This document shows positions 3,789 to 10,722 of a DNA stretch of 24,218 bases, piece after piece. Both the position numbers and the translations under genes were made by a program. The DNA comes from a virus. The notes under the pieces are model-generated. The model did not search any database and was not told the origin of the DNA. It saw nothing but the letters and a program-made list of their open reading frames with translations. Location of the stretch: IMG/VR virus record IMGVR_UViG_3300030389_002234, positions 1 through 24,218 of that record, one strand, 5' to 3'. How positions within the stretch are numbered: the first letter of the stretch is position 1; the number at the start of each line of letters is the position of its first letter.

Positions 3789-4655
3789 ATGCACGAAAGT
3801 ATCAACGACTTACACAATCTTTATCAACAGGATTGCGCTAGACGTAAAACAAAGACAATCAAAGAACTTAACAGGATTTACCATAAATACATTGCAGGTC
3901 CTTTAGGCCAGAAAAAACTTAATAAAGTTGTCAGAGGTGACATAGCCAAACTGCATTTCAGTTTGTCAGAGACAGCGCCTGCACAAGCTAATAAAGTATT
4001 AACGTTGCTTAGATCTATGTTTAATCTGGCTATCACACTCAGCTTGGTTGAAAGCAATCCTGCGACACACATTGCAAAGAACAAAGAAAACAAAAGAAAA
4101 CTATATTTAACAAGCGAACAACTAATTCAAGTCAAAGAACAATTAGACTTGTTATACAAAAACAAACGCTATCAAGAATCCGTAGATTTCATCTGGCTAC
4201 TGCTTTTAACAGGAGCTAGATGCGGTGAGATTGCAAAAGCTAAATGGACGGACTTACAAGGCAATATGCTTGTCTTGAGCGAGCATAAAACGGATCAGTA
4301 TGGCGAGGAAAGAGTTATACATTTGAGTGAACGCGCCCTGGATATAATCAATCGCAGGGCGCAGGAGGGCAAAAGGATATTTAACATTCAAGCGCCTCGG
4401 AGAGCGTGGGATAAAATCAGAAAAACTCTTGGTATAGAAGAGTTTAGATTGCATGACTTACGCCATACCTTCGCGTCGTTTAGTTTACAAAAACTACCGT
4501 TAGCGCAAGTTGGTCATTTGCTTGGACATAAAGATCAAAAGACGACTGCGCGGTATGCACATATACATAAAGACAAAGCTATTGAGTCTGCTGCGCTAGT
4601 GAGCGAGCATATAGAAGCTCTGTTACAACCTACAGATTTTCGAAATCAAATATGA
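3789..4655 (+). CDS. int: Tyrosine recombinase (phage integrase)
   Basis: A 288-residue tyrosine recombinase. Residues ~4-95 are a SAM-like core-binding domain and ~105-280 the catalytic domain. The full active set is visible: R144 (LTGARCGEIAKAKW), K167 (SEHKTD), H222 and R225 (RLHDLRHTFASF), H247 (LLGHKD) and the nucleophile Y256 (KTTARYAHI). It cuts and rejoins attP and attB through a 3'-phosphotyrosine link. At this length no separate arm-binding domain is obvious. The start is supported by GGAG six bases upstream (TTTTGGAGAAATAAATG). The 42-base gap before it holds an imperfect ACTAC...GTAGT repeat, possibly a promoter or operator. The 3' end overlaps the convergent RHH gene by 26 bases. 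The intact motifs and excisionase-like neighbour indicate a temperate phage or prophage. Confidence 0.95.
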   Translation: MHESINDLHNLYQQDCARRKTKTIKELNRIYHKYIAGPLGQKKLNKVVRGDIAKLHFSLSETAPAQANKVLTLLRSMFNLAITLSLVESNPATHIAKNKENKRKLYLTSEQLIQVKEQLDLLYKNKRYQESVDFIWLLLLTGARCGEIAKAKWTDLQGNMLVLSEHKTDQYGEERVIHLSERALDIINRRAQEGKRIFNIQAPRRAWDKIRKTLGIEEFRLHDLRHTFASFSLQKLPLAQVGHLLGHKDQKTTARYAHIHKDKAIESAALVSEHIEALLQPTDFRNQI

Positions 4656-4904: not shown

Positions 4905-5105
4905 ATGGAAACCACAGAAAATTTAGATTTAGTAACGACCAAAGAGTTGGCCAGAATACTCAAGATGTCGCATAGAACATTAGAGAATTGGCGCGGTCTA
5001 AACAAAGGTCCACGCTACAGAAAAGTAGGCGGTAAAATCTTGTACGACAAACAAGATATACAAGCCTTTATTGACTCAGAGGTAGTTGATCCAAATGCCG
5101 AGTAA
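4905..5105 (+). CDS. Excisionase / AlpA-type helix-turn-helix protein
   Basis: A 66-residue protein with a MerR-like winged HTH of the HTH_17/AlpA type: LVTTKELARILKMSHRTLEN-W at 9-29, then the wing GPRYRKVGGKILYDKQDIQAFID at 35-57. Such proteins bind DNA beside att sites and steer integrase toward excision, or act as transcription activators. The start is supported by AGGAGA five to nine bases before the ATG. It is the first plus-strand gene after the integrase/RHH pair and its end overlaps the recombination gene by 11 bases, so it probably leads the early operon. Excisionase versus transcription regulator cannot be separated by sequence alone. Confidence 0.8.
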   Translation: METTENLDLVTTKELARILKMSHRTLENWRGLNKGPRYRKVGGKILYDKQDIQAFIDSEVVDPNAE

Positions 5106-7128: not shown

Positions 7129-7578
7129 ATGGATATAACAAGTTGGGATCTGGATGCAATTCCAGAAAAAAAAGAATTAGAAGCTGGTAGATACACTATG
7201 GAATACCATGAAGCTGAACTAGTAAATAGTGATAGCGGATGGGAAGCCATAAAAATTACCTTCAAAATAAAAGACACAGGTAATTTTGTACCATGTACTT
7301 TTACAATGCAGTCTGATAATCCAGAAGCCATTAGGATAGGAAAAGGTTCTTTGAACGCATTAGCAAATGCGGTAGGACTTTCCTCTATGAAAGATACCGA
7401 TGAACTCGCAGGTAAGTTTGTATCTGCAGAAGTTGGTTTCAATAAAGGAGGTTATCCAGAAGTAAAAGATGACTATGGTAAAACCTGGCAGGCAGTTGAA
7501 GAAACTAAGTCAAGCCCAGAACCAAAAGTCGAAGAAGAGGAGTCGTCAGGAATTATAGATGACGAACTTCCTTTCTAG
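7129..7578 (+). CDS. DUF669 protein, SSB-like with DDELPF tail
   Basis: A 149-residue protein with a clean start (GGAG, six bases, ATG). Residues ~1-115 match the DUF669 pattern: MDITSWDLDAIPEKKELEAGRYTM, a strand with WEAIKITFKIKD, and GSLNALANAVGL. This is followed by an acidic linker (EPKVEEEESSG) and the tip DDELPF. Bacterial SSB ends in a similar acidic, Pro-Phe tip (DDDIPF) that recruits repair and replication enzymes, so a single-strand-binding role is strongly suggested. DUF669 genes commonly accompany Sak4-like ATPases in phages, as here. The 3' end overlaps the next gene by 20 bases. Confidence 0.85.
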   Translation: MDITSWDLDAIPEKKELEAGRYTMEYHEAELVNSDSGWEAIKITFKIKDTGNFVPCTFTMQSDNPEAIRIGKGSLNALANAVGLSSMKDTDELAGKFVSAEVGFNKGGYPEVKDDYGKTWQAVEETKSSPEPKVEEEESSGIIDDELPF

Positions 7579-7951
7579 TCTCGACTATTTTATAAAGTAC
7601 AACAGACAGTCTCTTTGCGGTTATTGTAAAGCGCCTGCAAAGGGATTGCTTGTTGAAAAAGAAAAAGATATTTACTACGCGGCATGTAGCAGAAAACACG
7701 CAGAAAAGATAATGAACGGAGAGAAACTAAACAGAAGGGCATACGCAAATCGAGACGGTGTGCGCTATGCAACAAAACAAAGCAAGGACAAATATATTGA
7801 GATCGCTAAGAAAAGCGGTACTTACGTTATGCATGAGTGGGACAGCAACGATAGAGAACAATTTTTTAATGAAGTAGTCTTAAACTATCTTGATTGGGCC
7901 AATGAGCAGGCAGAGAACGGCAACATAAGAGAGATAGTTATAGATGGTTAG
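7559..7951 (+). CDS. Small zinc-finger-like hypothetical protein
   Basis: A 130-residue protein starting within the end of the DUF669 gene. C20-x2-C23 (SLCGYCKAP) and C43-x3-H47 (AACSRKHAEK) form a plausible single zinc site. The rest is helical and charged (MHEWDSNDREQFFNEVVLNY), with no known enzyme motif. It overlaps the primase-helicase gene by eight bases. Primases of this type often carry an N-terminal zinc ribbon; the one here does not, so this protein might supply a DNA-contact zinc module in trans. That last idea is speculation from gene order. Confidence 0.75.
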   Translation: MTNFLSSLDYFIKYNRQSLCGYCKAPAKGLLVEKEKDIYYAACSRKHAEKIMNGEKLNRRAYANRDGVRYATKQSKDKYIEIAKKSGTYVMHEWDSNDREQFFNEVVLNYLDWANEQAENGNIREIVIDG

Positions 7952-9785
7952 CGTTACTAAACATTACGGAGAAGATGGTTTAGTCTTAGATAAAGATTTA
8001 GCGTTTGCAAGTTCAGGCAAAGATATCAGCGACTTACTGCGCGAGATGGAAAGCAACGCAGGATTGCGCGTTAGCAACTTAGTCACAACGGGCGAGATAG
8101 TCAGAGTTTCCGTTGGCGCGGTTGCAAGTCAACGTCCAGACAAAGGACAAGAAAAATCAGGTTGGTATTCAGTTAATTATTACGGCGACGCAATCTTCGC
8201 GTCTTACGGTAATTGGCGACAAGGCATAGAGTTCAAATTCAGCTCAGTCAATCCAAACGAGATGTCGGCGCGAGAGCGTGAAGATTTAAAACGGCGTATG
8301 GAAGAATCCATAGAGCGGAGCAAACAGCAACGCGCTGAAAGGTATGATGAAGTTAGCCAGGATTGTAAGAAAAGATTTGAGTCTGCAATAGAAGTTATAG
8401 ATCATCCGTATTTAGATAAAAAGCAAATTAAAAGTTATGGGTTAAAAGCAATCAGAGATAGTCTCGTTGTGCCTGTGCATTGTATAGAAAAAGGCCTAAG
8501 AAGTTTGCAATATATTAATAACGAAAAACGCTTTGTGAGCGCAAGCGAAGTCAAAGGCAATATTTATCATCTGGGTTTTGATTTATCAGATATCGCCAAT
8601 CAGAAAAAAATTATTGTCTGCGAAGGCGCAGCTACCGCGCATAGTATTTATGAAGCAACAAATCTTCCTACTATCTGTGTATTCTCTGCGTCGTTTGGTG
8701 AGGCGGCATTACTCAAGTTGCGTAAGCATACGCAAGCAAAGTTTGTGTTAGCGTTTGACAACGATGAACACGGTTTGGGCGCGAGTAAAGCGGAGGCGGT
8801 AGCGCAAGCGGTGGCGAGCGTGGAAATAAGAATACCGAGTGAGCGCGGCGACTATAACGACATGCACGTTGCTTATGGTTTAGAGAAAGTCAAAGAAGAG
8901 ATAATTAAAAGTAAGTTTAACTTTGCAAGTTTTGCCATTAGTAACTATGTGGGCGAGCCGCCAGAGCGTGATTGGTTAGTAGAAAATTTTATTGAAAACA
9001 AAGCAGGCGTGTTTTCTTCCATTGGTGGCGTAGGTAAATCCATGCTTGCGTTGGATCTCGCTCTTAAAGTTAGAGATGGTTTTGGCGACTTTATGGGTAA
9101 ACCTGTCAAAAAATCAGGTAATGTGGTGTTTTTTACCGCAGAGGACGATAAAACAGAGATTCATAGGCGGTTAAAAGCCTTAGACGCTCTAGGAGCTACA
9201 AAAACGTCGTCTCATGAAGTTTATGTAATTACCATACCAAACCTTAAACAACCCTTGAATTTGCTCATAGAGGACGTTTCTGGACTTCGAATTTCGAGTG
9301 AAGGCTACGAATTGTTGGAACAATTAGAAAGTATCGATAATTTAGCATTATGTATCTTTGATCCGATATCTTCGTTTGTTTCTGGTGTGCCGATTACGAC
9401 TAGCCAGGAGGCAGCACAGATGTACGGACAATATTGTTCTATGTTGAGTACAAAATTTGATTGCTCTACGTTGTCAATTCATCACATGACTAAAAGCGCC
9501 TTACAAGGTATTGATGATCCTATGTTGGCGCGAGCTGCTATTCGTGGCGCAAGTAGTATTATTGACTCAGCTAGGTTTGGACTCGCGGCATGGTTAGCAA
9601 GCGAGAGCGAGGCAGAGCGCATTTGTTTAGAGCAAGGCGTAGAATTTGACCGCATGCGCGTGATTAAGGCGGCGATAGTTAAAACTAACTCAGGCGAAGT
9701 CGATACAAAAATTAAGACTTTGTTTCGAAAAAATGCTTTACTTGAAATCATAGAAGAAAACAAAGGAGGTATAAATTGGGACTAA
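7944..9785 (+). CDS. Toprim primase - RepA-like helicase fusion
   Basis: A 613-residue two-part replication protein. Residues ~150-320 are a Toprim primase domain: IIVCEGAATAHSIYEAT with E227, and LAFDNDEHG with D272 and D274, for metal-dependent primer synthesis. Residues ~340-600 are a RecA-fold, RepA/AAA_25-type helicase: Walker A SSIGGVGKS (358-366), NVVFFTAEDDKTEIHRRL, Walker B LALCIFDP (D473), and SIHHMTK (H513/H514) as the sensor-like motif. The N-terminal ~150 residues hold no zinc ribbon and are unrecognised. It would unwind DNA and lay primers for host polymerase, since no phage polymerase is visible. The start overlaps the preceding gene. A repeat-rich noncoding stretch follows 130 bases later. 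Confidence 0.9.
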   Translation: MVSVTKHYGEDGLVLDKDLAFASSGKDISDLLREMESNAGLRVSNLVTTGEIVRVSVGAVASQRPDKGQEKSGWYSVNYYGDAIFASYGNWRQGIEFKFSSVNPNEMSAREREDLKRRMEESIERSKQQRAERYDEVSQDCKKRFESAIEVIDHPYLDKKQIKSYGLKAIRDSLVVPVHCIEKGLRSLQYINNEKRFVSASEVKGNIYHLGFDLSDIANQKKIIVCEGAATAHSIYEATNLPTICVFSASFGEAALLKLRKHTQAKFVLAFDNDEHGLGASKAEAVAQAVASVEIRIPSERGDYNDMHVAYGLEKVKEEIIKSKFNFASFAISNYVGEPPERDWLVENFIENKAGVFSSIGGVGKSMLALDLALKVRDGFGDFMGKPVKKSGNVVFFTAEDDKTEIHRRLKALDALGATKTSSHEVYVITIPNLKQPLNLLIEDVSGLRISSEGYELLEQLESIDNLALCIFDPISSFVSGVPITTSQEAAQMYGQYCSMLSTKFDCSTLSIHHMTKSALQGIDDPMLARAAIRGASSIIDSARFGLAAWLASESEAERICLEQGVEFDRMRVIKAAIVKTNSGEVDTKIKTLFRKNALLEIIEENKGGINWD

Positions 9786-9805
9786 CTAATAATAAAGGAG
9801 GAGCA

Positions 9806-9916
9806 ATGTCTAAAGGATCAAATCCAAGGCCAATGAACAGAGATAAATTTAACGAAAACTTTGACAAGATTTTCGGCAAAAAAAAGGAAAAAACCAAACC
9901 AAAGGACAAGAATTAA
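9806..9916 (+). CDS. 36-residue phage microprotein (SKGSNPRP type)
   Basis: A short gene with a strong AAAGGAGG ribosome site four bases before ATG. The product starts MSKGSNPRPMNRDKFNENFD, continues KIFGKKKEK and is basic at the end. I recall the pattern SKGSNxRP...F/YxENxDxIFG as a recurring microprotein in many tailed phages, often near replication or packaging genes; this is memory, not a search. No function is known to me. Size, ribosome site and pattern together make it a real gene. It lies directly after the primase-helicase and just upstream of the repeat-rich segment. Confidence 0.8.
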   Translation: MSKGSNPRPMNRDKFNENFDKIFGKKKEKTKPKDKN

Positions 9917-9917
9917 T

Positions 9918-10026
9918 GTACACAGATTCTCGTTTTATGTGCATAGAATCGCGTTTTTGGTACACAGATTAGTCTTACAAGGTAATTAAATTAGTCACAT
10001 AGACTATATAGCTATATAGCTATATA
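9918..10026. repeat. Repeat-rich noncoding segment, candidate replication origin
   Basis: Several repeats are packed in ~110 bases. GTACACAGATT occurs at 9918-9928 and 9960-9970, exactly 42 bases apart. GATTCT (9925-9930) and AGAATC (9945-9950) are inverted. ATTAGTC occurs at 9968-9974 and 9990-9996, 22 bases apart. TAGTC/GACTA form an inverted repeat (9992-10006). The palindrome CTATATAG is repeated 2.9 times at 10004-10026. Direct repeats spaced by near-whole helical turns next to an easily melted TA block, right after the primase-helicase, resemble an iteron origin. A promoter/operator complex is the alternative. The repeats are seen; the function is inferred. Confidence 0.55.
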
Positions 10027-10029
10027 CTA

Positions 10030-10062
10030 AAAATCGCTTTTTCTTTGGAAAAAAGCGATTTT
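10030..10062 (+). terminator. 13-bp perfect hairpin, likely terminator
   Basis: The arms AAAATCGCTTTTT (10030-10042) and AAAAAGCGATTTT (10050-10062) pair perfectly around a seven-base loop. The right arm ends in four T, so the hairpin would work as an intrinsic terminator, though its core is only TCGC/GCGA and the T tract is short. It closes the replication operon and lies 16 bases before the next gene. Because it is symmetrical it could also act on the reverse strand or be part of the origin. Confidence 0.65.
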
Positions 10063-10078
10063 GATTATTAGGAGAAAC

Positions 10079-10264
10079 ATGAAAAAAGATTTACGAATAT
10101 TCTTAACTAGATTCTTGTGGGACGATGAGGATTTTACAGGGCCTAATATTTATGCGAAGAGTGAGCGCGAGGCGCAAGCGATAGCAGAATATTACGGTTG
10201 TGATGTCATCGGCGAGCTAACGGAACAATTAATCCAAGAGAGCGAGTGCAAGAAGATACATTAA
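10079..10264 (+). CDS. Small hypothetical protein
   Basis: A 61-residue protein with ribosome site TAGGAG five bases before ATG; a frame starting earlier from TTG would begin inside the terminator hairpin and is rejected. The sequence is basic at the start (MKKDLRIFLTRFLWDDEDF), with a helix YAKSEREAQAIAEYYGCDVIGELTEQLI. The strand-loop-helix pattern with 'a.s..eA...a...g..vige' recurs in small phage proteins, but no function is known. Its end overlaps the next gene by 19 bases. It is rich in GAGCG/GCGAG words, unlike upstream genes. Confidence 0.75.
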   Translation: MKKDLRIFLTRFLWDDEDFTGPNIYAKSEREAQAIAEYYGCDVIGELTEQLIQESECKKIH

Positions 10265-10722
10265 ATAAATATTGGTGGCTTACTGAGGACGAGATTGAGC
10301 AACCGCGAGCAAGCGGGCTAGTGAGTGCGAGGGCGTGGGCGAAGTATAAATCTTACGCGAAACAGAAAGCGCTAGTCTGGCGATGGTTTCGGAAACAAGT
10401 AGGGAGAAAGGATCTCACGCCTGCGAGCAAGCTAGTTCTGTGGGCGTGCTGTGAGCGCCATAGGCATTTTAGTTGTAGCGTGAACGATAAATTTACTTAC
10501 TTAGCGCTTATGACGGGATTGGATCGGAGGAGCGTGAGTAATGCTATTCATGCGCTTGCGAGTGAGGAAAAGAATATCATCTGGATTGCAAGCGAGGGGG
10601 AAAGGTTATTAATGCGGAAAGCTAAGCGTGGTTATAAGAAACATTTATTGTTGGTTGGGTTAGAGAGCGAGCTAAGGGCAAGTGAGCGCGGTCTAGGAGA
10701 AAACACATTTTTTGGAGAGTGA
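10246..10722 (+). CDS. Winged-helix DNA-binding protein, replication-initiator-like
   Basis: A 158-residue basic protein read from GTG inside the previous gene (19-base overlap), with only weak AAGAGAG upstream. Residues ~55-110 resemble a winged HTH: LTPASKLVLWACCERHRHF, then YLALMTGLDRRSVSNAIHAL as helix-turn-helix, and a possible wing. This resembles the HTH of phage replication O/DnaD-like or RepA-like proteins, and the gene lies just beyond the candidate origin. Arg, Lys and Trp are abundant in the first 55 residues. An origin-binding role fits, but a transcription regulator is equally possible. Codon use is notably GAG/GCG/AGC-rich. Confidence 0.75.
   Translation: MQEDTLNKYWWLTEDEIEQPRASGLVSARAWAKYKSYAKQKALVWRWFRKQVGRKDLTPASKLVLWACCERHRHFSCSVNDKFTYLALMTGLDRRSVSNAIHALASEEKNIIWIASEGERLLMRKAKRGYKKHLLLVGLESELRASERGLGENTFFGE

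Follow-up and report, generated by a model that had tools for sequence, protein, structure and literature searches.

A probable iteron-type replication origin with constant geometry and changing repeat letters in uncultured marine phages

Does the short noncoding stretch ahead of a winged-helix protein gene in an uncultured marine phage serve as an origin of replication? The sequence studied is the IMG/VR virus record IMGVR_UViG_3300030389_002234, and the whole stretch of 24,218 nt that was analysed is referred to here as the window. The noncoding part occupies positions 9917–10078, between two plus-strand ORFs whose functions are unassigned. It begins at 9917 because the stop codon TAA of the upstream ORF (36 aa, 9806–9916) lies at 9914–9916, where it touches the first repeat of the locus. 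The downstream ORF (61 aa, 10079–10264) opens with an ATG at 10079 after a ribosome-binding site. Taking all the evidence together, it is very probable that 9916–10062 is a replication origin of the iteron type in a phage that is probably temperate. It would be read by a winged-helix initiator that loads a RepA-like helicase-primase. The GC skew of the window tracks gene direction, and the skew at third codon positions is approximately zero on both sides of the repeats.

The locus starts with an array of four related direct repeats on the plus strand, at 9916, 9937, 9958, and 9980, with spacings of 21, 21, and 22 bp. Iterons 1 (9916–9936, core ATGTACACAGATT) and 3 (9958–9979, core TGGTACACAGATT) enclose iteron 2 (9937–9957, core ATGTGCATAGAAT), which the initial annotation had overlooked, and are followed by iteron 4 (9980–10000, core AGGTAATTAAATT). 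The last copy is the most degenerate in the window, where its core matches the consensus at 8 of 13 positions; some relatives, including L020 and L044, keep it better. The initial annotation had described two separate repeat pairs, namely GTACACAGATT with copies 42 bp apart and ATTAGTC with copies 22 bp apart. The letters and distances of both are real (9918–9928 and 9960–9970; 9968–9974 and 9990–9996), but the parsing was incomplete, as the first pair consists of copies 1 and 3 of the four-copy array and the second of parts of copies 3 and 4. With a score of 52, this is the best four-copy array in the 24 kb window (the runner-up scores 47), and matches to a relaxed iteron pattern within the window are confined to it. 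When the whole window was Markov-shuffled 60 times, the maximum score averaged 46 and reached 51 at the top, and shuffles with the local AT-rich composition gave scores of up to 54. Taken alone, the array in the window is only moderately beyond chance. Since the shuffles of local composition reach 54, the case rests on the relatives, and conservation is the decisive evidence.

Two inverted repeats follow the array. The TA-rich units CTATATAG reported earlier are present at 10004–10019, and they overlap a perfect AT-rich palindrome of 22 bp, TATATAGCTATATAGCTATATA, at 10005–10026, which is proposed to be the unwinding element. The hairpin, also reported earlier, has a perfect 13-bp stem (10030–10042 and 10050–10062) with a loop of 7 nt, so that on the plus strand it spans 10030–10062, directly before the ribosome-binding site. 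In the relatives, the order is the same: the last repeat is followed by an AT-rich stretch, the palindrome, and then the hairpin. Two inverted repeats occur in most clusters of relatives, in many different sequences that are each self-complementary, and the AT palindrome stands in the same place in most clusters with other letters. In classes B and C, the inverted-repeat test found the hairpin only and no AT palindrome. Directly after iteron 4, at the junction of iteron and AT palindrome, a further short motif, ATATCC[AG]T, is conserved in most clusters that belong to neither class A nor class C, among them L050, L088, and L097; the window's own class and class C lack it.

The relatives were collected by scanning IMG/VR for the winged-helix protein, which matched 151 of them; the best 80 of these 151 were kept. 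Those examined form 16 clusters at 85% identity, with identities down to 36%. They are nearly all metagenome-derived, many contigs are near copies, and the clusters are not strictly independent lineages. The 450 bp upstream of each winged-helix gene were scanned for arrays, with downstream stretches as controls. A clear four-copy array with a spacing of about 21–22 bp lies upstream of the gene in 15 of the 16 clusters. The best array scores in these 15 range from 54 to 72, against shuffle means of about 40–45 and downstream controls of 37–46; the window's own array, at 52, is the weakest in its cluster. The remaining cluster, L109, is weak, with an array score of 48 and shuffles of up to 49. 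When the spacing was left free between 14 and 46 bp, 21–22 bp was chosen at all 24 loci, which cover all 16 clusters. The positions adjoining the array match the consensus poorly and give no clear fifth copy, and the copy number is therefore four. By the initial annotation's own criterion, missing repeats or random spacing in the relatives would count against its proposal; with the array kept in 15 of 16 clusters, the idea survived.

The letters of the iterons vary from cluster to cluster. They include TGTACATAGAWT, GTCCTTAGAWT, ATGCAACA, GGCGATTCTAG, GGGACATATTGTC, and GCGCTACAA, as well as GACAAATTGTACC, CTAACATATCCAA, CAAAACTACCCAA, TGTTAGGGACATA, and others, and a few clusters have a core in common. 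As read from sequence, the comparison shows the array, the AT palindrome, the hairpin, and the downstream winged-helix gene to be one conserved unit in which the letters change and the geometry is kept. In L024 (1381–1460), iterons 2 and 3 deviate by identical letters, TGTCGTTAGA, as would be expected if repeats inside one array change together. In 50,697 records of annotated phages, neither the winged-helix protein of the window nor three of its relatives (four cluster queries) found a match, and a search of 72,556 plasmid records with one relative as the query gave none. A search of genome contigs found none with the first alignment; with the larger alignment, it found a single contig, from a Pelagibacter MAG.

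The replacement of an array is seen when the window is compared, protein by protein, with a class B genome (L008/L027). Most of the compared genes are 84–99% identical: the excisionase-like protein at 97%, the exonuclease at 96%, Sak4 at 92%, orf7559 at 96%, the helicase-primase at 94%, TerS at 87%, and DUF7220 and TerL at 99% each. The 36-aa ORF is 91% identical across 32 residues. For the array of the window, the other genome offers no DNA match, and the two winged-helix proteins share 60% identity, although the small ORF in between is 84% identical; therefore, two changed islands flank a conserved small gene. This 61-aa ORF is kept in classes A–C, and the other clusters gave no match for it. 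Divergence in this pair extends beyond the array and the winged-helix gene, because the SSB is lower than its surroundings and only one of the four minus-strand ORFs compared matched. The SSB difference concerns a DUF669/SSB-like gene (7129–7578), which is 73% identical between the two genomes, with neighbouring replication genes at 92–97%. Over the clusters, repeat similarity and protein similarity were compared with a Mantel test, which gave a weak signal (Spearman 0.20, p 0.04) that is not specific to the recognition helix. As the signal is weak and the recognition helix is not singled out, cognate binding of array and protein is something that we infer.

The candidate initiator is the winged-helix protein of 158 aa encoded at 10246–10722 on the plus strand. 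It matches phrog_270, "replication initiation protein", at 1.7e-5, and members of its family match the PHROG replication-initiation families 270, 6643, 5810, 19658, and 678 (weakly). The TIGR01610 profile (phage O N-terminal domain) left the window protein unmatched and met two relatives below the cut-off (E 0.0058 and 0.02; 17 and 15 bits vs 45.5). Each of these profile links to a known initiator is weak, and solved structures searched by profile, with the candidate protein as the query, gave nothing significant. An AlphaFold2 model built from 40 sequences predicts a winged helix with a pLDDT of 88.8; it replaced a first model from 8 sequences, which was discarded at a pLDDT of 50.7. The modelled winged helix covers approximately residues 59–139, with helices at about 83–90 and 94–105 and wing strands at about 112–136. 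Fold searches returned a generic winged helix (best E of 0.018 for Foldseek against the PDB; VIA Z of at most 7.5). VIA lists 4pql ("N-terminal domain of DNA binding protein") and 4pt7 ("Structure of initiator"), and Foldseek lists the DnaD N-terminal domain 2v79. The fold is not taken as proof, because these three tie with many regulators. The suggestion in the initial annotation that this protein binds the repeats nevertheless gains from the replacement of array and protein together, the weak initiation-family matches, and the confident winged-helix model, which all point to it as the probable binder.

The small ORF and the winged-helix gene (10141–10722) are also dense in G[CT][GA]AG pentamers on the plus strand, with 21 copies, or 36 per kb, vs 3.8 elsewhere; positions 8001–9000 are dense as well. 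For this motif, which was chosen post hoc, synonymous resampling gave 3.5 expected copies in the winged-helix gene, where 16 are present (0/1000), and 8.6 in the helicase gene, where 24 are present. An open 5-mer scan pointed to a broader G-rich bias. The density recurs in L046, L050, L099, and L111 and not in L085 or L054.

The probable partner of the initiator is encoded just upstream, at 7944–9785 on the plus strand. This protein of 613 aa combines a TOPRIM/DnaG-like primase part with a RepA-like (AAA_25) helicase, as indicated by Pfam (AAA_25, 1e-25; Toprim_3, 3e-8), PHROG (DNA primase, 4.5e-39), and the solved RepA helicase 1g8y (2.8e-16), the RSF1010 protein. In most relatives whose DNA extends far enough upstream, a related gene precedes the array. 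The slot between the helicase-primase and the array is variable. In the window, it holds short ORFs (9786–9915), and in other genomes, as judged by reading the sequence, it holds a cytosine methyltransferase-like gene (L001/L014), a PAPS-reductase-like gene (L010/L012), or the end of another methyltransferase-like gene (L023).

These parts can be arranged into a plausible order of events. The spacing of 21–22 bp corresponds to about two helical turns, and molecules of the winged-helix protein would occupy all four iterons from one side of the helix and bend the DNA. The bound initiator would strain the adjoining AT palindrome open, and the RepA-like helicase-primase encoded upstream would be loaded there to unwind and prime. 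The hairpin, once single-stranded, may be a priming or loading structure; alternatively, it may be a feature of the transcript ahead of the ribosome-binding site. Binding of the initiator to the iterons may also regulate the initiator gene. What characterizes iteron origins in general was found at this locus: several direct repeats are spaced by helical turns, next to an AT-rich element and a candidate initiator gene.

The same repeats might have other functions. If the array were an operator only, the winged-helix protein would regulate its own operon and replication would start elsewhere. Arrays directly upstream of genes for DNA-binding proteins can be operators, in every cluster the array precedes the gene, and the fold is as much like MarR/CRP-type regulators as initiators. 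A weak promoter-like match at 10000–10028 overlaps the AT palindrome, and shuffles give as many. This explanation is nevertheless unlikely: four fixed copies at two-turn spacing with a conserved palindrome and hairpin exceed what an operator needs, the family matches bear the name of replication initiation, and the helicase-primase accompanies the unit in most relatives.

A partition site or an array of arm sites for integrase or excisionase has only a very small probability. The window does encode a tyrosine integrase (3789–4655) and an HTH_17/excisionase-like protein (4905–5105), and such proteins bind repeated sites. Yet the integrase gene is 5 kb distant, and in class B, the repeats change with the winged-helix protein, whereas the excisionase-like protein stays at 97%. 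No convincing ParA/ParB-like profile match was found among the window proteins scanned, a subset of the ORFs. The repeats could also be features of a leader RNA or a terminator with no DNA-binding role, as the position of the hairpin directly before the ribosome-binding site might suggest. This is just as improbable, given that an Rfam search matched no family and a terminator scan found no terminator-like site in 9750–10300. Direct repeats, helical spacing, and cluster-specific letters suggest that it is duplex DNA that is recognized.

It is possible, and put forward here tentatively, that marine phages of this family repeatedly switch their "origin type". The iteron letters and the initiator would be exchanged together with the four copies, the spacing, and the palindrome-hairpin layout remaining fixed, and near-identical phages would become incompatible replicons. 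The drive for such switching could be an escape from origin decoys, which are known to block lambda (PMC4488673), from prophage interference, or from origin-targeting nucleases, a pressure described for PLE and ICP1 (PMC8263062). The layout can be recognized by eye and by script in many related marine phages, all uncultured, and as a marker it can help to locate origins in viral contigs. The natural pairs of an initiator and its set of sites, over a dozen in number, keep the geometry and change the letters, and they provide a data set for studying how specificity changes on both sides. It also becomes possible to ask whether the origin type sets which phages share a cell.

The initial annotation knew no described phage with this arrangement, and no description of it in a marine phage was found in the open-access literature. 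It does, however, resemble the lambda origin, in which four iterons stand beside an AT-rich tract that is needed for unwinding and not for O binding (PMC7466680) and which works in a similar mode (PMC7466680, PMC5043065). Here, too, four iterons lie beside an AT-rich tract. The lambda iterons start at 39034, 39054, 39078, and 39101, with spacings of 20, 24, and 23 bp, and score 63 in the same scan that gives 48–72 here; the spacing of 21–22 bp is stricter in the marine phages. In the lambda sequence, an inverted repeat also follows the iterons, as inverted repeats do here. Lambda O matches PHROG 5810 and 678, families in common with family members here, weakly for the latter. The differences are equally clear. 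The lambda iterons lie inside gene O, whereas those at 9916–10000 lie outside the gene at 10246–10722, and upstream of it in the relatives too. The C-terminal part of lambda O recruits P-DnaB, and the 158-aa protein has no counterpart to it; next to its candidate origin, the marine phage, unlike lambda, encodes a helicase-primase. Because of these differences, and because no O profile matches at the cut-off, the system is not placed with lambda O/ori, although it would work as ori-lambda and iteron plasmids do.

The origin of the IncQ plasmid RSF1010, with its RepA helicase, RepB' primase, and RepC initiator, has iterons of about two helical turns, an AT-rich tract, and hairpins. All of these DNA elements have a likeness here, where the iterons are four in number and spaced by 21–22 bp, and a RepA-type, putatively hexameric helicase is indicated by the match to 1g8y. 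In place of RepB', the helicase is fused to a TOPRIM primase. No RepC family was found among the Pfam matches at E values of up to 1. With no RepC match and with TOPRIM in place of RepB', the system is not an RSF1010 replicon. Among PLE satellites of Vibrio cholerae (RepA_N and iterons) that are otherwise similar, the repeats of the origin co-vary with the region of the initiator that binds DNA (PMC8263062). PLE differs in its three semi-palindromic iterons of about 30 bp and in its RepA, whose C-terminal domain is separate, and its likeness to the phage is an analogy. Set beside these relatives in design, the system is, as far as its sequence allows it to be classified, a novel form of iteron origin.
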